DNA of 64,000 bases from Chryseobacterium artocarpi (GTDB lineage Bacteria; Bacteroidota; Bacteroidia; Flavobacteriales; Weeksellaceae). The position numbers and the translations under genes are program-made. Position 1 is the stretch's first letter; every line of letters starts with the position of its first letter. Where the stretch lies: NCBI RefSeq assembly GCF_001684975.1, contig NZ_MAYH01000045.1:558001-622000 (forward strand). The letters run 5' to 3'. Positions 8,385-64,000 of the stretch are shown one piece after another. The notes beneath the pieces were generated by a model. It saw only the letters and a program-made list of their open reading frames with translations, made no database searches and was not told the DNA's origin.

Positions 8385-9659
8385 TTGAAGAAAATCTTTT
8401 TTACACTATTTTATATTCATTGTTTCAGTTTCTTTTCTGCTCAGATTTCAGACACTTTGAAAATTGACAGAAAGGAAGCTGAAACGATTTTTCTATCCAA
8501 AAATCTGGATCTTATTGCTCAGAAACTTGAAATCTCTCAGGCAGAAGCAAGAGCGGTACAGGCTAAATACTGGCCTAATCCTACCTTAAGTATCAGTGAA
8601 GTAAATCTTTGGAGAACTTATGATATTGAAGAACAACCTGCCCTTATTGGAAACTGGGGGAAGAATACTCAGATCTCTGCGGAAATAGAGCAGGTGATTC
8701 AAACGGCAGGAAAGCGAAGAAAAAATATTGAGCTCCAGAAAATAGAAGTAGAAGGTGAAAAATATGAATTGCAGGAAGTATTACGTGAACTTAAAAAGAC
8801 GCTGAGAAATACGATTACTGAAATTTTATATAATCAGGAACAGCAGAAAATTTATCAGGGACAAATTTCTTCTATCGAAAAACTAACAAAGTCTTACAAT
8901 AATCAATTAAACCTTGGGAATATCAGTAAAGCGGAATATATCCGTCTGAAGGCACAGGAAATTGAGTTTAAGAAAAAACTTGTTTCGCTAAAGCAGGAAA
9001 TTGAAGATCAGCAGGCAGAATTAAAATCTTTGTTGATGATTCCTTCTAATCATTACCTCGTAATTTCAGATGCTTTTACCATGCCGGAGAAGCAGCTTTC
9101 GGAAGTTGAATTGACACAATGGTTGGATAAAGCGAAAGAAAATCGTCCGGACATTCTGATCTCCAAGAATAAAGAAAAACACGCGGCAAAGAATCTTGAA
9201 ATTCAAAATGCAATGAAAACACCTGATGTAGCTGTTTCAATAGGATATGACCGTGGCGGAAATATTATGAAAGATTTTATTGGATTAGGTCTTTCCGTTG
9301 ATCTTCCCATTTTCGATAGAAATAAAGGAAATATTCAGGAAGCGAAACTTGAGATTGAGAAAAGTAAGAATGAAACCCGTAAAAGTATGCTGAAATCTGA
9401 GAATGAAATTGTTTCCGTCTTCAGGAATTATATCCGTACTCAGGAAGTTTCTGAAGAAATAGATGATACTTATGAATCCACACTGGATGGATTGCTGGTA
9501 AGCCATGAAAAGAATTTCAGATTAAGAAATATCAGCATGCTGGAATATATGGACTTTCTGGATACCTACATCGGAAATAAGATGATCATTCTGGATACTA
9601 AAAAAGAACTCAATCAATACTATGAAAACCTGCAATATGTTGTAGGACAAGACTTATAA
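8385..9659 (+). CDS. TolC-family outer-membrane efflux protein (CzcC-like)
   Basis: 424 residues from a TTG start; the signal peptide (KKIFFTLFYIHCFSFFSAQ) begins right there and no ATG is nearby. Two long helical outer-membrane-efflux repeats typical of TolC/CzcC (LSISEVNLW, a predicted coiled-coil near 120-200 rich in Lys/Gln/Glu, then a second repeat with IGYDRGGNI, GLGLSVDLPIFDRNKGNI and a final helix). It should form the outer-membrane channel of a tripartite pump. First gene of an operon with the periplasmic adaptor (62 nt downstream) and the RND pump. Confidence 0.9.
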   Translation: MKKIFFTLFYIHCFSFFSAQISDTLKIDRKEAETIFLSKNLDLIAQKLEISQAEARAVQAKYWPNPTLSISEVNLWRTYDIEEQPALIGNWGKNTQISAEIEQVIQTAGKRRKNIELQKIEVEGEKYELQEVLRELKKTLRNTITEILYNQEQQKIYQGQISSIEKLTKSYNNQLNLGNISKAEYIRLKAQEIEFKKKLVSLKQEIEDQQAELKSLLMIPSNHYLVISDAFTMPEKQLSEVELTQWLDKAKENRPDILISKNKEKHAAKNLEIQNAMKTPDVAVSIGYDRGGNIMKDFIGLGLSVDLPIFDRNKGNIQEAKLEIEKSKNETRKSMLKSENEIVSVFRNYIRTQEVSEEIDDTYESTLDGLLVSHEKNFRLRNISMLEYMDFLDTYIGNKMIILDTKKELNQYYENLQYVVGQDL

Positions 9660-9721
9660 GGCATCGTGGTTTTAAAATAAAATTCCTCATTCCCTTATCA
9701 AAAACATAAACATCTATAATA

Positions 9722-10831
9722 ATGAACACTACCAAATATATTGCAGTAATATACCTGTCTGCCCTGGTTACGCTTGCAGGCTGTAAAGATCAAAAGCAGA
9801 ATGCTGAAGCAGAGAAAAGCTATTGTATCAGTAAAGAACTTAAAAAAGATATTAAGCTTGCCAAAGCAGAAATGCTTCCCATCGAAGAAAGTATAACGCT
9901 TACCGGAGAGGTAGAAAGTAATTCTGATAAAACAGTACCGTTCGTAAGCCTTGTGGATGGAGTTGTTACAGATACTTATTTCTCTCTTGGAGATTATGTG
10001 AAAAAAGGGCAGGTGCTGGCAAGTGTAAAAAGTACAGCGGTGAATGAAATGCAGGACGATACCCAGACATTGCAGGCACAGCTTACAGTTGCGAAAAGAA
10101 AACTTGCGTCTGTAGAAGCCATGTATAAAGATGATATAGCCTCTCAAAAAGATCTTCAGGAAGCAAAAGCTGAAGTTACCATATTACAATCTAATATTTC
10201 CAAGACCCAGAAAAATATGCAGTTGTATTCCGCGGGAGGAAGTACACTTCAGATTAAAGCACCAGCAGACGGTTATGTTATCACTAAAAATATTTCTAAG
10301 GGAATGCCCGTAACGGCTGGCGGAGATCAGCTTTTTACTATTTCCAATTTGGATAAAGTCTGGGTGATGGCGAATGTATATGCTACCAACATGAGACATG
10401 TTTATGTAGATCAGCCGGTTGTTGTAAAGACTTTGGCTTATCCTGATGACAGCTTTTCAGGAAAGATCAATAATATTTCGCAGGTTTTTAATGAAAATGA
10501 AAGAGTATTAAAGGCGAAAATCATTATGGATAATAACGGAATGAAGCTAAGACCGGGAATGTCAGCCGATGTTGTTTTACCAGTTAACTCCCAGAATAAA
10601 AGTGCGCTGGCTATTCCAGCGAAGGCTTTAATCTTTGATAATAACCAAAGCTATGTAGTCGTGTATAAAAAAGATTGTGAATTGGAGATCAGACCAGTGA
10701 CGGAAATAGCTTCCAATAGCCAATACATCTATGTGGAGGGTAACTTAAACCAAGGTGAAAATGTCATTGCATCCAATGGATTACTGATCTACGAAAACCT
10801 GAAAACACAATTAAATAATTCCAAGAAGTAA
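9722..10831 (+). CDS. RND efflux periplasmic adaptor lipoprotein (CzcB-like)
   Basis: 369 residues. The lipoprotein signal ends with LVTLAGC (Cys21), so the adaptor is anchored in the inner membrane by lipid. Order of domains: barrel-sandwich/lipoyl half (SLVDGVVTDTYFSLGDYVKKGQVL), a helical hairpin (about 105-160), second lipoyl half (IKAPADGYVITKNISKGMPV), beta-barrel (VWVMANVYATNMRHV) and membrane-proximal domain (LRPGMSADVVLP, ALIFDNNQSYVVVYK). It links the inner-membrane pump to the TolC-like channel. Its stop overlaps the next ATG (TAATG). Confidence 0.92.
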   Translation: MNTTKYIAVIYLSALVTLAGCKDQKQNAEAEKSYCISKELKKDIKLAKAEMLPIEESITLTGEVESNSDKTVPFVSLVDGVVTDTYFSLGDYVKKGQVLASVKSTAVNEMQDDTQTLQAQLTVAKRKLASVEAMYKDDIASQKDLQEAKAEVTILQSNISKTQKNMQLYSAGGSTLQIKAPADGYVITKNISKGMPVTAGGDQLFTISNLDKVWVMANVYATNMRHVYVDQPVVVKTLAYPDDSFSGKINNISQVFNENERVLKAKIIMDNNGMKLRPGMSADVVLPVNSQNKSALAIPAKALIFDNNQSYVVVYKKDCELEIRPVTEIASNSQYIYVEGNLNQGENVIASNGLLIYENLKTQLNNSKK

Positions 10832-13800
10832 TGCGAAAATTTGTACAGAATATAGTTTCCTTTTCTTTAAAAAACTCATTGATCGTTCTTCTGGGGACTT
10901 TCCTTTTGTTGATTGGAGGAATCTATTCCTATATACATACACCCATTGAGGCATTCCCGGATGTTACCAATACAAGAGTAAGGGTAATTACCCAATGGCC
11001 CGGAAGAAGTGCAGAAGAAATAGAGAAATTTGTTACCCTTCCGATTTCCAAAGAAATGAATGCCATTCCCAATAAAACATCGGTGCGTTCCATTTCTTTA
11101 TTTGGATTGTCGGTGGTTACCGTGATTTTTGATGATCATGTCAATGACTTTTATGCACAGCAATATGCTTCCAATAAACTTGGGAATGTAGATTTGCCCA
11201 ACGGTGCGGAATACAGTATTGAACCTCCATCGGGAGCAACTGGAGAAATTTACAGATACATTATTAAAAGTAAACTTCCGATCAAAGAGGTTACGGCTAT
11301 TCAGGATTGGGTGGTTGAAAGAGAATTGCTTGCCGTTCCCGGAGTTGCTGATGTTGTGAGTTTTGGTGGTGAAGAAAAAACATATGAAATAAAAATTAAT
11401 CCTACAGAATTACACAATTATGACCTTTCCCCCCTGGATGTGTATGAAGCAGTTTCGAGGAGTAATATTAATGTAGGAGGAGATGTTGTTGCAAAAGGAG
11501 ATCAGGCTTATGTAGTGCGGGGGATTGGTCTTTTAGAGAAAAAAGAGGATATTGAAAACATTCAGATTGAAGTAAAAGGTTCTACGCCTATTTTGGTAAA
11601 ACATGTTGCTGAAGTGAAAATTTCTGCAAAACCAAGATTAGGACAGGTAGGTTATAATAAAGAAAACGATGTTGTAGAAGGAATTGTGATCATGCTTCGT
11701 GGTGAAAATCCAAGCGAGGTAATTGCAAGACTTAAAGACAGAATTGAAGAACTGAATGGAGGAGAACTACCCGGTGATGTTCAGATTGTTCCGATTATTG
11801 ATCGTACTGAGCTGGTGAATACAACTGTAAACACAGTTTCCAAAAACCTGATCGAAGGAGTTATTCTGGTTTCCATCATTGTATTTATATTCCTGTACAA
11901 TTGGAGAACTACTTTTATTGTGGCTTCAGTAATTCCGTTAGCATTCCTTTTTGCTATTATTATGCTGAAAATTCAGGGACTTCCGGCTAACCTTATTTCT
12001 ATGGGAGCGCTTGACTTCGGTTTGTTGCTGGAAGGTACGCTTGTCATTGTAGAACATGTATTTGTTGCCCTCGAACTTAAAGCCAAGAAAATAGGACTCA
12101 GAAGGTTTAATAAAATTTCCAAGCTGGGAATCATTAAGAAGAGTGCCGGAAGTGTAGCAAGCTATATTTTCTTTGCCTTATTGATTCTGATTGTTGCATT
12201 GTTACCAATCTTCTCATTCCAGAAAGTGGAAGGTAAAATGTTCTCACCATTGGCATTTACATTAGGATATGCTTTGCTGGGATCGTTGATTTTGAGTTTA
12301 ACATATGTTCCGGCAATGTGTAAGCTTTTATTGACTAAAAATATTGAGGAGAAAGAGAACTTTATTTCAAGATTCTTCAGAGTAAATATCTATAGGATTT
12401 ATGAATTTAGTATTCGTTATAAAAAAGGCTTTGTGATTGGTTTTCTTACTTTATTGGCAATTTGTGGATGGCGATTTTCAAACTATGGATCAGAATTCTT
12501 ACCTAAGCTTAATGAAGGGGCAATCTATGTACGTGCCACACTTCCGAATAGCGTAAACCTTGATGAATCCGTACGTCTTACCAAAGAAATGAAGGAGATT
12601 TTAATGAAATATGATGAAGTGAAATTCGTAATGACCCAAACCGGACGTCCCAATGATGGAACAGACCCTACGGGATTCTTTAATATTGAATTTAATATCC
12701 AGTTGAAACCTGAAAAAGAATGGAAGAAAAAGATCTCCAAAGAAGAACTTCTTGAGGAAATGAGAACTTCCCTTGAAAAATATCCGGGAATCAACTTTGG
12801 TTTCAGTCAGCCGATTCAGGATAATGTGGAAGAATATGTAGCAGGAGTAAAAGCTCCATTGGTAATTAAAATTTTCGGAAACGATTTATTTGAACTCGAA
12901 AATTATGCAAATCAGGTAGCGAACTCCATCAGAACTGTTCCGGGAATTTCAGATGTTAATGTCTTTAAAAATATCGGACTTCCCGAATTGAGAATACAGC
13001 TTCATGATTCAAAAATGGCAAAATACGGAGTTTCCACAGCAGATGCACAGGCAGTTATTGAAATGACGATTGGCGGACAGGCAGCGACCAAGTTTTACGA
13101 ACAGGAAAGAATGTTTGATGTCATGCTGAGATTTGAAAAAGATTATCGTGATACTCCTGAAAAAATGGGAAATATTCTGATCCCGACTCAGGATAATAAA
13201 AAAGTACCATTGAAGGAAATTGCAACCATTGATTATCATACCGGACCATCTTTTATTTACCGTGAAGGAAACAGCCGATACATTGGAGTAGGATTTAATA
13301 TTGAAGGGCGAGATCTGGGAAGTGCTATTAAAGAAGCAAAAGAAAAAGTAGATAAAGATGTGAAACTTCCAAAGAACCATAAAATGACGTGGGCAGGAGA
13401 GTTTGAAAGCAAAGAAAGAGCGGCAAAACAATTGACAATGGTAGTTCCAATATCTCTTGTGTTGATTCTAATGTTGTTGTATTTCAACTTCGGAAATGTA
13501 AAAGATACTTTGATCTCTTCCATTACACTGGCATTTGCATTCATCGGAGGATTCTTATCACTATGGTTTACGGGAACTATTTTCGGAATCTCTGCAGGAA
13601 TTGGTTTTATTATCCTTTTTGGGGTGGCTACCATTGACGGTATCGTCCTCATTGGAGTGATGAAAGAAAACCTTCAGAACAGAATGTCTCTTAAAGAAGC
13701 AATCTCTGAAGGAGTGAAAAGCAGAATACGTCCGGTGGTAATGATTGCCTTGATGGGTTCCATGGGACTTCTTCCGGCAGCAATGTCCAATGGAATGGGT

Positions 13801-59642: not shown

Positions 59643-60557
59643 ATGAGACTAAACATTAAAAACGAAACGGGTAGGCTGAAGTCTGTAGTACTAGGTCAGC
59701 CTAATTCATTGGGACCGGTTCCCACACTAGAGGAAAGTTATGACGCTAAGTCATATTACTCAATCGAGCATAATATTTATCCTAAAGAAGAGGATATCAT
59801 TAATGAAATGAACGCTTTTGAAGCTGTTCTAAAAAAGTATGACGTAGAAGTATTACGTCCTAGCATCATTGAAGATTACAATCAGGTTTTTTCAAGAGAT
59901 GTGGCATTTGTAATTGATGATAAGATGATCATTTCAAACGTGATTGCAGACAGAGCAGATGAACAGGAAGCATATAAAAGCGTTTTTGAAAAAGTAGCAT
60001 GGAGAAAAATTATCAACCTTCCGGAAACAGCACATATTGAAGGTGGAGATGTTATCGTATGGAATGACTTTATTTTCATCGGAACATGCTTCAGCGAAGA
60101 TTACAGAAACTATAAGACGGCAAGAACCAACGAATATGCCATCGAAATCTTAAAAGAATATTTTCCAAAGAAAAGAATTATCGATCTTGAACTGAAAAAG
60201 AATGATAAAGTTCCGTTTGAAGGAATTCTTCACTTAGATTGTACTTTCAATCCAGTAGGGGAAGATAAATGTATTATCTACAAAAATGGATTCGTAGACG
60301 AGAGCGATTACCGTTTAATCATTGATATTTTCGGAGAAGAAAACTGTTTCCACATCAATGATGAAGAAATGTTTGAAATGTTCCCAAATATCTTCTCTAT
60401 CTCTCCTGAAATAGTAGTTTCGGACAAAGCATTCACAAGAATGAACGATCACTTAAGAAACGAATGGGGAATGACTGTTGAAGAAATTCCTTACAGAGAG
60501 ATCTCTAAAATGGGGGGCTTACTGAGATGTTCTACGATGCCTCTTGTAAGAGAGTAA
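59643..60557 (+). CDS. Guanidino-group-modifying enzyme (arginine deiminase/DDAH-like)
   Basis: 304 residues, pentein fold. Catalytic features: Glu133-Gly-Gly-Asp136 (HIEGGDVIVW), His197 in GILHLDCTFNPVG and the nucleophile Cys296 in GGLLRCSTMPLVRE. Asp86 in FSRDVAFVI also fits substrate binding. Members of this superfamily hydrolyse or transfer the amidino group of arginine, methylarginines or related compounds; the length and end motif fit a hydrolase rather than an arginine deiminase of the ADI operon. A second pentein-family enzyme follows after 44 nt. Confidence 0.82.
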   Translation: MRLNIKNETGRLKSVVLGQPNSLGPVPTLEESYDAKSYYSIEHNIYPKEEDIINEMNAFEAVLKKYDVEVLRPSIIEDYNQVFSRDVAFVIDDKMIISNVIADRADEQEAYKSVFEKVAWRKIINLPETAHIEGGDVIVWNDFIFIGTCFSEDYRNYKTARTNEYAIEILKEYFPKKRIIDLELKKNDKVPFEGILHLDCTFNPVGEDKCIIYKNGFVDESDYRLIIDIFGEENCFHINDEEMFEMFPNIFSISPEIVVSDKAFTRMNDHLRNEWGMTVEEIPYREISKMGGLLRCSTMPLVRE

Positions 60558-60601
60558 TAATGTAGTAGAGTTTTAAATCCTTTAATTTTTAATTCAAAAA
60601 A

Positions 60602-61525
60602 ATGCAAACAACAGATACCGTATTAATGATAGAACCGATTGCATTCGGTTATAATGCAGAGACTGCGAAAAATAATTACTTTCAGGTAGAACAGACAGGT
60701 TCCGATATTCAGTCAAAAGCTTTGGCTGAGTTCAATACTTTTGTTGGAATACTGAGAGGAAAAGGAATCAATGTAATCACAATTAAAGATACATTAGATC
60801 CTCATACTCCGGATTCTATTTTCCCTAATAACTGGGTAAGCTTCCATAAAGATGGGAAAGTGGTTTTATATCCCATGTTCGCATCCAACAGAAGAGTAGA
60901 AAGAAGAGATGATATTCTTGAAAGCATCAAAGCTAAGGGATTTGATATTACTGAAATAGACGACTGGTCTTTTCCGGAAACACAGGGACATTTTCTTGAA
61001 GGAACAGGAAGTATGATTTTTGATCACGATAATAAGATTGCTTACGGTTCCGTTTCTTTGAGACTGGATGAGAACTTATTCAGAGAGTTCTGTGAGAAAT
61101 ATGGGTTTACACCAATCGTTTTCCATTCTTATCAGACAGTAGGTACAGAAAGACTTCCAATTTACCATACCAACGTAATGATGTGTGTGGCTGATAAATT
61201 TGTCGTTATTTGTCTTGACTGTATCGATGATGAACTGGAAAGAGAAAAAGTAATTGAAACGATTAAAAACTCAGGAAAAGAAATCGTTGAAATCTCTGAA
61301 GAACAAATGCAGCAGTTTGCAGGAAATATGCTTCAGGTTCAAAATAAAGCAGGTGAAAAGTTCTTGGTAATGAGCCAAACTGCTTATCAGTCTTTAACAC
61401 CGGAACAGGTTTCAGCTATTGAAAAATACTGTGAAATCATTTATTCAGACCTTAATACCATTGAAGTAAACGGAGGCGGAAGTGCAAGATGTATGCTTGC
61501 AGAAGTATTTCTTCCAAAAAAATAA
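60602..61525 (+). CDS. ctlX: Amidinotransferase-family hydrolase, probably CtlX type
   Basis: 307 residues, pentein fold. FPNNWVSFH (74-82), LEGTGSMIFD (132-141), His189 in IYHTNVMMCVAD and Cys297 in GGGSARCMLAEVF form the active site. This architecture matches proteins now called citrulline utilization hydrolase CtlX in Bacteroidota and other phyla, which would hydrolyse citrulline to ornithine; older annotations say arginine deiminase-related. Name given from recollection of the family. It precedes speD by 20 nt, which suggests an arginine/ornithine-to-polyamine link. Confidence 0.75.
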   Translation: MQTTDTVLMIEPIAFGYNAETAKNNYFQVEQTGSDIQSKALAEFNTFVGILRGKGINVITIKDTLDPHTPDSIFPNNWVSFHKDGKVVLYPMFASNRRVERRDDILESIKAKGFDITEIDDWSFPETQGHFLEGTGSMIFDHDNKIAYGSVSLRLDENLFREFCEKYGFTPIVFHSYQTVGTERLPIYHTNVMMCVADKFVVICLDCIDDELEREKVIETIKNSGKEIVEISEEQMQQFAGNMLQVQNKAGEKFLVMSQTAYQSLTPEQVSAIEKYCEIIYSDLNTIEVNGGGSARCMLAEVFLPKK

Positions 61526-61545: not shown

Positions 61546-61905
61546 TTGAACCCATTATCAAATAAAGGTTTACATATTCTTCTGACTTTGGAAACAGAGT
61601 CAGAAGATTTGTTAATAGACAGCAACAGTTTCCTTGCATTCACAGAGAAGATGTTGGAAACGAAAGAAGTGGAAATCGTAGGGATTACCAATCATATTTT
61701 TGAGAATCAAAGTTTTACTTCGGCGGTTTGCCTTAAAGAATCACATCTTTGCATCCATACATGGCCGGAGTTTAAACAGCTTACCTTTGATGTATTTCTT
61801 TGTAATTATACTCAGGACAACACGGAAAAGGTAGAGCAGATTGCTGATGAAGTGGTTCAATATTTTAAAGCTAATACCATTCAGAAACACAAAATTTACA
61901 GATAA
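61546..61905 (+). CDS. speD: S-adenosylmethionine decarboxylase proenzyme
   Basis: 119 residues from a TTG start (no ATG at the N-terminus; the family core GLHILLTLE begins at residue 8). Prokaryotic class 1B. The self-cleavage site is Glu65-Ser66 in LKESHLCIHTWPE: Ser66 becomes the pyruvoyl cofactor. His71 and Cys86 (FLCNYT) match the processing and catalytic residues His68 and Cys83 of the Thermotoga enzyme, with constant offset. Supplies decarboxylated AdoMet, the aminopropyl donor. The next gene starts 1 nt after its stop, so it belongs tightly to the DUF4178/DUF350/SpeE-like cluster. Confidence 0.9.
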   Translation: MNPLSNKGLHILLTLETESEDLLIDSNSFLAFTEKMLETKEVEIVGITNHIFENQSFTSAVCLKESHLCIHTWPEFKQLTFDVFLCNYTQDNTEKVEQIADEVVQYFKANTIQKHKIYR

Positions 61906-61906
61906 G

Positions 61907-63373
61907 ATGGATCATATTTGTCCCATTTGTAAAACCAATAACAACCAGATGGCAATTGATTTTGTCATTGAAGAATTTATCTGCAGTCATTGTAAAAATC
62001 TCATTTCATCAGAAGGAATCTCTGTTAAGAAAAAGAAGGTCAAAGAACCTGTAGAAAATGTTGTATTGGAAGTAGGGCGTAAAGGCATACTTTACGGTAC
62101 AGAATATTGGGTGATCAATATTGTCATCAAAAAATACGGCTCAGATACCTTTTGGCGGGAATATACCTTGAAAGACCGTGCCGGGAATAACATTTATCTC
62201 AGCGAAAGTGATGGACACTGGGTTTTTCTTCGTCAGGGAAATTTTAAATTGACAGAATATCAATATTATGTTGAAGTTGACGGAAAAAACTACAGATGGT
62301 ATGAAACCACTCCATGCACAGTTCATGCTGCATCCGGCTTTTTTGAAGATAAGCTTCCATTTGGGTTAACTACCTATAAAGAATATGTAAACGGGACGGA
62401 AATGGTTTCCTGTGAGCAATACGGAAATGAATTTCAGTTTTTCAAAGGAAATCATATTTCAAAATCTGTAATAAAAAAAGCTTTTGGAATTACAGGAATG
62501 CCGTTTTATGCGGGAATAGGGATTGTACAGCCTTTTTATTATAACGTTAAGCAATGTATCAATATCATGGCTATTACAGCTTTATTGATATGTTTACTTC
62601 AGCTTTATACTGTTACATCCAGAACTAATCAGACTGTATTTGAACAGACAATCGCTTTTGAGGATGTAAATGACAAAGAACTGGTGAGTAAAAGCTTTAC
62701 TCTCTCAGGAGGTTCTGCTCCGCTAAAAGTAAATCTTTTCTCTGATGTGGATAACTCCTGGGCAAATGTAGGGCTTGGACTGGTGAATGAAAAGACCAAT
62801 GAAGTGATTTATGCTACAAAAGATATTGAACGCTATTCAGGTTTTGAAGACGGAGAAAGCTGGAGCGAGGGAAGCCAGAACGAAAATTTCAATATGTGTG
62901 GTATTCCTCAGGGAACCTATCATTTTATTGTTTCAGCAGAAAAAGAAGGCGGAGGCAAAAATCCGTTTCAGTCGGGATACAGACCTGAAAATGGAGATTT
63001 CTCGGTTATTCAAAATACAACAGGAACTTTCTTTCTTAAAAATGATAAGGATAAAAGTGTCGAAACTTTTACAGATAAAGAGTCCTTGAAAAATGAAATC
63101 ATATCGAGAACAGGGCTTCAGAATACTGTAAAAGAAATGAATAAAATGGATTCCATACTTGTGAATATGCCTCCTAATTATGATTACACAGCCAATGGTG
63201 AGAAAAACCTAAGTGTTAATATAAAAGCAACATGGTTACCGGTTTCATTTTGGAATTTTGGAATTGTGATCTTCATTATGGCTTTGTTTACCGTAGCAAG
63301 TTATATCGCTAAACGTATTTTTGAAGGCAGTAAATGGTATAACAGTTCAAATTCACCTTATTCTACTAATTAA
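61907..63373 (+). CDS. DUF4178-domain membrane protein with zinc ribbon
   Basis: 488 residues from the ATG at 61907; a longer frame to 61841 overlaps speD and lacks support. A zinc ribbon is at the start (Cys5-Pro-Ile-Cys8 and Cys26-Ser-His-Cys29). DUF4178-like beta-rich domain follows (GRKGILYGTEYWVINIVIKK, WREYTLKD, YYVEVDGKNYRWYETTPCTV), then a helix (IMAITALLICLLQLYTV, about 222-238), a ~200-residue extracytoplasmic beta domain (SFTLSGGSAPLKVNLFSDVD) and a final helix (FGIVIFIMALFTVASYIAKR). DUF4178 proteins recur beside speD, DUF350 and membrane aminopropyltransferase genes; their role is unknown. Confidence 0.82.
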   Translation: MDHICPICKTNNNQMAIDFVIEEFICSHCKNLISSEGISVKKKKVKEPVENVVLEVGRKGILYGTEYWVINIVIKKYGSDTFWREYTLKDRAGNNIYLSESDGHWVFLRQGNFKLTEYQYYVEVDGKNYRWYETTPCTVHAASGFFEDKLPFGLTTYKEYVNGTEMVSCEQYGNEFQFFKGNHISKSVIKKAFGITGMPFYAGIGIVQPFYYNVKQCINIMAITALLICLLQLYTVTSRTNQTVFEQTIAFEDVNDKELVSKSFTLSGGSAPLKVNLFSDVDNSWANVGLGLVNEKTNEVIYATKDIERYSGFEDGESWSEGSQNENFNMCGIPQGTYHFIVSAEKEGGGKNPFQSGYRPENGDFSVIQNTTGTFFLKNDKDKSVETFTDKESLKNEIISRTGLQNTVKEMNKMDSILVNMPPNYDYTANGEKNLSVNIKATWLPVSFWNFGIVIFIMALFTVASYIAKRIFEGSKWYNSSNSPYSTN

Positions 63374-63376
63374 GAG

Positions 63377-63568
63377 ATGGAAAGATTAATTAATTATATC
63401 AGAGACAACTGGATGCTCTTTGCCATCGGAGGATTTTTCTTAGGATGGTTCGTTTATCTGACATTTACAGGAAATCAATTCTGTGATTGTGCAAAAACGG
63501 AAAACTATCGGGACGGAACCACAAGGAGTCATTCCAGAGCAGGATTTTACAGATACTATCACAAATAA
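63377..63568 (+). CDS. Small single-helix membrane protein in the speD cluster
   Basis: 63 residues. One membrane helix (MLFAIGGFFLGWFVYLTFTG, about 13-32), then a short polar tail with CDCAK and many Arg/Tyr/Ser. Located 3 nt after the DUF4178 gene and 13 nt before the DUF350 gene. No family recognised; likely an accessory subunit. Confidence 0.7.
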   Translation: MERLINYIRDNWMLFAIGGFFLGWFVYLTFTGNQFCDCAKTENYRDGTTRSHSRAGFYRYYHK

Positions 63569-63581
63569 AAAAATTAAAACT

Positions 63582-63797
63582 ATGGACAATATTAATCTAA
63601 TACCTATATTCAATTCAGTTCTATATTCATTCCTGGGAATTGCTATTTTACTGATCTGTTATTTCATCATTGAAAAATTAACGCCGGAAAAAACATGGCA
63701 TGAGATCGCTCAGAATAAAAATATAGCTCTGGCTATCGTCTTTGGAGCATTTATCATCGGAATTTCAATGATTATAAGCGCTGCAATTCATGGATAA
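63582..63797 (+). CDS. DUF350 (YjfL-like) membrane protein
   Basis: 71 residues from the ATG at 63582. Two membrane helices: [21 protein letters not shown] and [23 protein letters not shown], separated by the DUF350-typical [14 protein letters not shown]. YjfL/DUF350 proteins are small inner-membrane proteins found in stress or envelope-associated operons, often with DUF4178 and polyamine-type enzymes. Its end overlaps the next gene by 8 nt. Confidence 0.85.
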
Positions 63798-64000
63798 GAA
63801 GAGGATTCCTCTTGAACTGCTTTTATTGTTTTCTGTTTTTGTCATTGCGACATGTGGATTGATCTATGAACTGGTGGCTGGTGCATTGGCAAGTTATCTT
63901 TTGGGAGACTCTGTCAAACAGTTTTCCTTTATCATTGGCGTCTACCTGTTTTCTATGGGAGTAGGTTCCTACCTGGCAAAATTCATCAAGGGAAACCTTA
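63790..64000 (+). CDS. Membrane-embedded spermidine-synthase-like protein, cut by window edge
   Basis: First 70 codons only. [20 protein letters not shown] is followed by [20 protein letters not shown] and [20 protein letters not shown], the start of the multi-helix N-terminal domain of membrane polyamine aminopropyltransferases. The catalytic domain lies outside the window, so activity cannot be checked. It would use the decarboxylated AdoMet produced by SpeD. Confidence 0.8.

Follow-up and report, generated by a model that had tools for sequence, protein, structure and literature searches.

A seven-gene operon of Chryseobacterium artocarpi and its relatives that may aminopropylate the C-terminal lysine of a small membrane protein

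RESULTS

Gene content of the operon

The analyzed DNA, hereafter the window, is a stretch of 64,000 nucleotides (nt) of Chryseobacterium artocarpi (assembly GCF_001684975.1), positions 558,001–622,000 of contig NZ_MAYH01000045.1 (C45; 670,500 bases of a 4.9-Mb genome in 51 contigs). At its end begins an operon in which a homologue of S-adenosylmethionine (AdoMet) decarboxylase, SpeD, is encoded together with a membrane-fused aminopropyltransferase, SpeE, and five other proteins, all on the plus strand. The speD gene (61,546–61,905; first start codon TTG) encodes a soluble class 1b protein of 119 amino acids (aa) matching Pfam AdoMet_dc with 70.8 bits against a curated cut-off of 25. One nucleotide further starts the gene for a 488-aa protein (61,907–63,373), for which Pfam, hydrophobicity and an AlphaFold 2 (AF2) model indicate an N-terminal zinc ribbon, a DUF4178 domain (37.7 bits), a transmembrane (TM) segment at residues 218–236, a jelly-roll domain at about 240–446 and another TM segment at 446–464. 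After 3 nt comes the gene for a small single-TM protein (63,377–63,568; 63 aa) ending in ...YRYYHK-COOH, the candidate aminopropyl acceptor, and, 13 nt downstream, that for a 71-aa DUF350 protein (63,582–63,797) with two hydrophobic segments (52.4 bits). The latter overlaps by 8 nt with speE, which begins at 63,790 and is cut by the window end at 64,000. In full, speE (C45: 621,790–623,304, up to window-equivalent position 65,304) encodes 504 aa comprising seven hydrophobic segments and then an aminopropyltransferase domain. The domain matched Spermine_synth with 133.9 bits, also above the curated Pfam cut-off, as were the DUF4178 and DUF350 scores, and the whole protein scored 639 bits against a cut-off of 472 for the family of 7TM-fused aminopropyltransferases (PRK03612 / NF002956).

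Two more plus-strand genes lie outside the window, namely those for a 529-aa flavin adenine dinucleotide (FAD) oxidoreductase with a twin-arginine translocation (Tat)-like signal (C45: 623,279–624,868, window-equivalent 65,279–66,868) and for a 343-aa multi-pass membrane protein designated TM9 (C45: 624,870–625,901, window-equivalent 66,870–67,901); the gene that follows TM9 is on the opposite strand. A sequence-only reading of the window had described a compact cluster of five genes, and their identity and spacings are exactly as given there. The number of genes had to be revised, since the sequence past 64,000 completes speE and adds the FAD and TM9 genes. The membrane setting suggested in the same reading was borne out by a hydrophobicity scan, which showed membrane segments in five of the seven products.

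Conservation and distribution of the seven-gene unit

Searching bacterial genomes with a profile of TM9 revealed at least 529 confirmed relatives, and the best-scoring 80 loci, a selection favouring close relatives, were used for comparison. In 79 of these best 80, all seven genes were present on one strand and in the same order (SpeD, DUF4178, small TM protein, DUF350, SpeE, FAD, TM9); the 80th is a 4.4-kb contig with only the last three genes. These loci came from Chryseobacterium, Epilithonimonas, Elizabethkingia, Flavobacterium and a few Flavobacteriales bins. Across the class, 247 genomes were sampled, and 7TM-SpeE exceeded the family cut-off in 26 of them, for which loci were read from 25 plus the C. 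artocarpi genome itself; TM9 was found in 17 genomes, all of them among these 26. Within the genus, SpeE was found in 67 of 148 genomes and SpeD in the same 67. One of these SpeE proteins (genome G298) shows 41% identity and comes from an operon of another type. In genome G308, rated 75% complete, the entire operon is present in many fragments (L088: 5494–12151), which reflects either decay or poor sequence.

The corresponding site was examined in 16 of the 81 genus members that lack the cluster. Fifteen of them had no trace of the seven proteins, and one (G249, L218: 5027–5248) retained a 74-aa TM9 remnant, in which we see the mark of a past deletion of the cluster. Directly upstream of speD in the window (59,643–61,525) are two genes of the arginine deiminase superfamily, DDAH-like and CtlX-like, names that we assign provisionally. 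This pair was kept at all 16 empty sites, and in 15 of them (the exception being L217) the next gene was the glycoside-hydrolase-like one found downstream of TM9 in many cluster-positive genomes. Since the flanks are kept and the seven genes are gone, the block was lost or gained as a whole. Together with the gene order conserved in 79 of 80 loci, the 16 empty sites show that the association of these genes is not due to chance.

The small membrane protein and its C-terminal lysine

All 109 copies of the small TM protein end in His-Lys. The preceding residue is Tyr in 104, His in four and Asn in one; among the 100 copies found by profile, 98 end in YHK and two in HHK. Two further copies were left uncounted: one from a frame-broken genome (L074, tail NHK) and one in which the tail is fused to the DUF4178 protein and still ends in SHK (L078). 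Among the 12 class-level loci with the FAD gene (L067–L078), the small-TM profile matched only L070, and in nine others (L067, L068, L069, L071, L072, L073, L075, L076 and L077) a single-TM open reading frame (ORF) with the same HK end was located between the DUF4178 and DUF350 genes, in a gap of about 170–245 nt. The mean identity among 11 class-level small TM proteins, with the last three columns excluded, was 25% (range 15%–66%). The codon of the tail His varies (CAC in 76 copies, CAT in 33); therefore, selection acts on the protein.

When 41 whole loci were scanned for small TM ORFs with an HK end, 28 of them gave a single such ORF and 13 gave none. Of the 13, L068, L074, L089 and L090 do have the tail and miss the hydrophobicity or start rule, those of L089 and L090 being recovered by a hidden Markov model, and the remaining nine (L079–L087) represent other operon types. 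As a background, 1,216 ORFs of 150 aa or longer in these loci were considered after removal of the seven families, a set that may still include proteins with GK and GG tails; HK was at the C-terminus of four of them, GK of 16, GG of three, and Lys in general of 277. The charge of the N-terminal flank of the TM segment is above that of the C-terminal flank in 99 of 109 copies (equal in eight, reversed in two), and the tail is therefore predicted to lie outside, on the same side as the SpeE catalytic domain.

The sequence-only reading had proposed an aminopropylated compound made and used at or across the membrane, possibly in envelope or lipid modification. A similar idea is in print, as the accessible text of PMC11237479 indicates, and the part of it that concerns the target needs to be changed: the invariant His-Lys end, in our view the most informative feature of the operon, points to a protein acceptor and not to a lipid or a free compound.

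Catalytic residues and topology of SpeE

Alignments were limited by ORF length (450–620 aa for SpeE, 480–600 for the FAD enzyme, 320–400 for TM9), and broken or fused copies were not counted. Residues Q241, Y270, H271, E272, D349, D367, D370 and W439 were present in all 119 aligned 7TM-SpeE sequences. We take the Tyr, Gln, His, acidic and Trp positions among them to be those that are catalytic or substrate-binding in spermidine synthases. The donor-binding acid of the GGG(D/E)G motif is Asp in 117 sequences and Glu in two; the users of decarboxylated AdoMet (dcAdoMet) in this superfamily need that acid, as stated in the available part of a paper on a fungal 7TM methyltransferase (PMC10349129). 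A dead SpeE domain, which the sequence-only reading had named as a reason to abandon its proposal, was rejected because all catalytic and donor-binding positions checked are conserved, and the enzyme looks active.

Seven hydrophobicity peaks are found in SpeE, with family means of 1.58–2.36 and lowest single values of 1.16–1.73 (at least 1.67 for the seventh). No further peak occurs within the 23 residues that come after the seventh, where the mean best window is −0.26. The mean numbers of Lys plus Arg were 2.8, 2.6, 3.0 and 4.5 in the segments predicted to be inside and 0.8, 0.1 and 0.7 in those predicted to be outside, and the inside-minus-outside sum was at least 6 in 119 of 119 sequences. 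By the positive-inside rule the N-terminus lies inside, and since the chain then crosses the membrane seven times, the catalytic domain is predicted to be located outside.

The FAD oxidoreductase, TM9 and the DUF4178 protein

The FAD gene product matched the Pfam families NAD_binding_8 (45.6 bits) and Amino_oxidase (24.3 bits against a cut-off of 19.8), and its GxGxxG motif has G71 and G73 in 110 of 110 sequences, features that place it in the flavin amine oxidase superfamily. Its N-terminal region resembles a Tat signal, with R9 and F12 invariant (110/110) and C29 present in 109 of 110, and the enzyme is therefore probably exported. In locus L101 (8467–11547), SpeE and the FAD protein are read as one 1026-aa frame with a run-length difference at the gene overlap, which is due to either sequencing error or slippage; this single ORF was not used as evidence of a fusion.

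TM9 contains four invariant histidines (His59, His114, His243 and His328; 109/109). It belongs to no Pfam or NCBIfam family, and 14 scanned relatives gave only chance-level matches. Comparison with the PDB revealed no Foldseek match at E ≤ 0.001 and, by sequence, none better than E 0.84. In comparisons with rhodopsin-like and UbiA-like folds, the structural model of TM9 (predicted local distance difference test, pLDDT, 79.5) gave a best VIA Z of 6.3 with a root-mean-square deviation of 4.5 Å over 160 aligned residues, a Z that lies among the values given for helical bundles by this tool. Assignment of TM9 to the Brp/Blh carotenoid dioxygenases (PF15461) was rejected, since hhalign gave probabilities of 1.2% and 0.5% against 12 sequences and 100% in the BCD self-control.

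The zinc-ribbon cysteines of the DUF4178 protein (C5, C8, C26 and C29) are invariant in 39 aligned sequences. The sequence-only reading had suggested that this protein may act as a scaffold. In its AF2 model (pLDDT 85.5) the ectodomain is a jelly-roll with Z up to 8.6, and the modelled fold is a generic one, common to many unrelated proteins. Seven Foldseek matches of this protein at E ≤ 0.001 had TM-scores of 0.06–0.12 and were discarded as meaningless.

SpeD and the supply of polyamines

The residues Ser66 and His71 of SpeD are conserved in all 114 aligned copies and Cys86 in 103 of them, consistent with the sequence-only reading, where all three had been noted as intact. The score of 65.7 bits does not reach the TIGR03330 equivalog cut-off of 75.65. 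The C. artocarpi genome contains a single AdoMet_dc match and a single Spermine_synth match, both in this operon, and no NspC above the cut-off (43 against 409 bits). One DHS-like gene is present there, as in each of the 148 genomes of the genus. Bacteria can make homospermidine with SpeY, which is a homologue of DHS, as described in the accessible part of PMC10407285, and homospermidine is given as the major polyamine of all Flavobacteriaceae in the portion of a genome paper that was available (PMC3072086). Thus, the genus appears to depend on a different route to a triamine, for which the DHS-like gene of homospermidine type is the candidate, and the polyamine supply looks separate from the operon. 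Given that only 67 of 148 genomes contain SpeD and SpeE and all 148 contain the DHS-like gene, ordinary spermidine supply was set aside as the likely main role of the operon, as the sequence-only reading had also supposed.

Related operons of other types and in other phyla

Other loci combining 7TM-SpeE and DUF350 encode different tail proteins. That of L081 is a small TM protein ending in RGK, and in L082 a small TM tail ending in GGK was found by reading frames. GK-ended tails on lipoprotein-like or DUF4178-fused proteins were found in L084, L085, L086, L219, L220, L221, L223 and L225 (a partial ORF in L225). In L085, L219, L220 and L221 the SpeE, TM9 and FAD genes adjoin without an HK protein, and the GK lipoprotein belongs to the same gene group. 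Two 7TM-SpeE genes are located near each other on opposite strands in L085 and L221, one with TM9 and FAD genes, the other with DUF350, lipoprotein and SpeD genes. Tails ending in GG were found in L083 and L087; the neighbour of the tail gene in L087 is a GSP_synth ligase (233 bits), and the 388-aa neighbour in L083 was judged to be one too from its place and start. The E. coli proteins YjfM and YgiB also end in GG, and the products of the adjoining genes are named peptide-spermidine ligases in RefSeq.

The prediction of a lysine-ended tail was set down before plasmids were searched with two 7TM-SpeE proteins; both gave the same 13 records, of which nine were read. The others were H6 and H7, from Burkholderia, and H10 and H12, both of them second records of species already read. 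At all eight plasmid loci with complete SpeE, a protein ending in Lys is encoded beside the DUF4178, DUF350 or SpeE gene; the Rhodovulum record (L236), with a SpeE fragment lacking the TM part and no DUF350, was excluded. These eight loci span Alpha-, Beta- and Gammaproteobacteria and Gemmatimonadota. The tails end in SHK, SHK and THK in three Novosphingobium loci, SHK in Burkholderia stagnalis (between the DUF4178 and SpeD genes, with DUF350 undetected by profile), SGK in Ensifer, SGK on a 510-aa protein in Alteromonas, HGK in Gemmatirosa and VK in Tritonibacter. Ensifer, Tritonibacter and Alteromonas gave no detectable FAD gene, and TM9 was detected in none of the nine records. A plasmid search with TM9 itself gave no match.

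Neighbouring genes

The CtlX-like hydrolase gene (60,602–61,525, plus strand) ends 20 nt upstream of speD. In 59 of 114 speD loci (57 by the gap rule plus L097 and L124, with a 53-nt overlap), none of them from Flavobacterium, a CtlX-like gene precedes speD on its own strand. It was not accepted as a core member, being not found next to the Flavobacterium loci and present in all 16 cluster-negative genomes that were read. Downstream on the other strand, locus L002 contains two tandem outer-membrane-receptor-like genes (8844–13426), which most empty sites also show; at this site, the region after 7901 is without the secreted glycoside-hydrolase-like gene (about 590 aa) that trails TM9 in many relatives.

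DISCUSSION

Proposed function and its alternatives

We propose that the operon encodes a membrane-bound protein-modification system in which the small TM protein is aminopropylated at its C-terminal lysine and then processed by the FAD enzyme and TM9, a scheme to which we give an even chance of being correct. According to its family and residues, SpeD would produce dcAdoMet in the cytosol, and the 7TM part of SpeE, perhaps together with DUF350, would present it at, or move it to, the outer side of the cytoplasmic membrane. There the SpeE domain could transfer the aminopropyl group to the C-terminal lysine, giving N-epsilon-(3-aminopropyl)lysine; this residue would have a side chain resembling spermidine and be comparable to hypusine. 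In lysine, as in putrescine, the amine is borne by a chain of four carbons (an aminobutyl group). Most spermine synthases tested are strict for aminobutyl groups, as reported in the accessible part of PMC11107197, and the C-terminal lysine is therefore proposed as the acceptor. The exported FAD enzyme and the His-rich TM9 might then oxidize or otherwise finish the group, and the DUF4178 protein, with its zinc ribbon inside and jelly-roll outside, would sense or hold the assembly.

A number of observations weigh against this scheme. C-terminal Lys is common in the loci studied (277 of 1,216 background ORFs), which makes the GK tails weaker evidence than the HK ones, and this background count covers these loci and not the proteobacterial and Gemmatimonadota set. 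The 109 tail copies are non-independent, most being from two related genera and some species being counted twice. The conservation of the C-terminus could also stem from a function in docking or sorting, without any modification. In Tritonibacter the tail is NRVK, and the tails of Gemmatirosa, Tritonibacter and Burkholderia were identified by inspecting reading frames at or close to the expected position, which leaves some latitude. No tail protein was seen at L079 and L080, which have 7TM-SpeE and no DUF350. Both a ligase and 7TM-SpeE accompany the GG tail in L087, where SpeE may use a different amine. The predicted sidedness of SpeE rests on the positive-inside rule, and a domain outside would need dcAdoMet outside. 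As regards the FAD enzyme, position 10 of the signal is Lys in 55 sequences, Arg in 54 and Ser in one, so that half of the signals are RK and not RR. A single-sequence PDB search with this protein gave nothing at E 0.01, and its profile similarity to solved members covers mainly the N-terminal nucleotide-binding segment.

The most serious alternative, although an unlikely one, is that the aminopropyl group is passed by SpeE to a membrane lipid or a small amine and that the FAD enzyme and TM9 process the lipid product. The protein with the His-Lys or Gly-Lys tail would then be a subunit that docks to SpeE or to the FAD enzyme through its C-terminus. The abundance of membrane segments, present in five of the seven products, would suit such a role, and the accessible passages of PMC11237479 propose aminopropylation of other substrates and a link to membrane structure. 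However, Pfam and NCBIfam scans recognized no lipid-handling family in any of the seven proteins, and docking leaves unexplained why unrelated proteins end in Lys and why Gly-Gly ends occur beside a ligase of the peptide-spermidine type. Rather improbable, in our estimate, is an arrangement with the SpeE catalytic domain facing the cytosol and the tail modified or bound inside, for example, in a stress sensor. It would place the enzyme where dcAdoMet is made, and the four conserved cysteines of the DUF4178 zinc ribbon do suggest a cytosolic domain, but the seven SpeE peaks, the hydrophilic stretch past the seventh and the Lys plus Arg difference in every aligned sequence predict the opposite orientation. 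The lipoprotein-like tails of the other operon types, the N-in/C-out-like charge pattern of the small TM protein and the Tat-like signal of the FAD enzyme agree with that prediction.

Two other explanations seem far less probable. One is an ordinary spermidine pathway with a synthase that is simply membrane-anchored, for which the proximity of SpeD to an intact SpeE domain would speak. We consider it very improbable, given the distribution of the DHS-like gene compared with that of SpeD and SpeE and the five additional genes that accompany the pair in 79 of the best 80 loci. Moreover, Li and colleagues (Biochem J, 2019) are said to have found that such membrane fusions do not complement a spermidine synthase mutant. 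The other, to which we assign marginally less credence still, is that SpeD is a neofunctionalised arginine or ornithine decarboxylase, in which case there would be no aminopropyl donor. Such SpeD homologues are widespread, as the available part of PMC10407285 states, and the subthreshold TIGR03330 score is compatible with this; on the other side, the gene is the only AdoMet_dc match of the genome and lies close to its single Spermine_synth match. A Pro in the middle part of SpeD, found in 113 of 114 copies, may be set against it as well: in the same part of that paper, a Pro is conserved in true AdoMet decarboxylases and not in the ADC group, its position there being unmatched to the Pro considered here.

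Relation to known systems

Hypusine is a lysine modification of eIF5A, in which DHS transfers a butyl moiety from spermidine to an internal lysine in the cytosol. The product proposed for the small TM protein would resemble it as an aminoalkyl chain on lysine and differ in that an aminopropyl group from dcAdoMet would be placed on a C-terminal lysine. The E. coli pairs YjfM-YjfC and YgiB-YgiC, like the operon described here, combine a polyamine enzyme with a neighbouring protein that has a flexible C-terminal tail rich in Ser, Arg and Gly, and the yjf operon also has a DUF350 neighbour; there, however, an ATP-grasp ligase goes with GG tails, whereas the C. artocarpi tail is Lys-ended (YHK) and no ligase is encoded. 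A Pfam scan found no GSP_synth ATP-grasp gene among the seven.

Li and colleagues reportedly described an AdoMet decarboxylase with an MFS-SpdSyn fusion, with a DUF350 neighbour, spermidine not being the product and the acceptor left open. The AdoMet decarboxylases of such operons are said to have been recognized for some years as standing apart from polyamine synthesis, without an acceptor. Compared with that fusion, the present analysis adds a candidate for the acceptor, delimits a unit of seven genes and predicts the side of the membrane. The second group of Ravi et al. 2024 (SpeE-7TM/DUF350/DUF4178/lipoprotein/PspA), as presented in the accessible text of PMC11237479, shares 7TM-SpeE, DUF350 and DUF4178 with our operon; it has a lipoprotein where the small HK-ended TM protein is found here, and the FAD and TM9 genes are additional. 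Neither a lipoprotein nor the CesT/Tir-PspA dyad is among the seven genes, the search for PspA having covered the operon and not the rest of the genome. Aminopropylation of other substrates has already been suggested for this cluster type in the available passages of PMC11237479; in its text as accessed the words lysine and C-terminus are absent, and the passages on the operon mention no tail motif. A literature search found no paper on this motif, subscription papers being beyond its reach, and priority on the ligase side may lie there. What is new here is the candidate acceptor, the cluster association and the idea of aminopropylating other substrates being already in print. The fungal NHMT, as described in the part of PMC10349129 that was available, is alike in architecture, with seven TM helices followed by a spermidine-synthase-like domain. 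This enzyme of the endoplasmic reticulum, which modifies secreted proteins, is a precedent in kind; it is eukaryotic, uses a methyl donor and has Ile in place of the dcAdoMet-binding acid.

Implications

With slightly less than even confidence, we suggest that these operons represent a new class of extracytoplasmic modification, in which dcAdoMet, moved or received by a 7TM-SpeE on the outer side of the membrane, would serve to aminopropylate a C-terminal lysine on an anchored protein dedicated to this purpose, with an exported flavoenzyme and a new His-rich membrane enzyme completing the aminopropyl-lysine. DUF350 operons in general might then be polyamine-tail systems, those with Lys tails operating with aminopropyltransferases and those with Gly-Gly tails with ATP-grasp ligases. 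If the C-terminal lysine is indeed the acceptor, the question reduces to one mass-spectrometry experiment, and the DUF350, DUF4178 and PspA-linked polyamine genes would gain a common logic. The operon would also be a case of dcAdoMet chemistry beyond the cytosol, and a hypusine-like modification would exist at the outer surface of a bacterial membrane.

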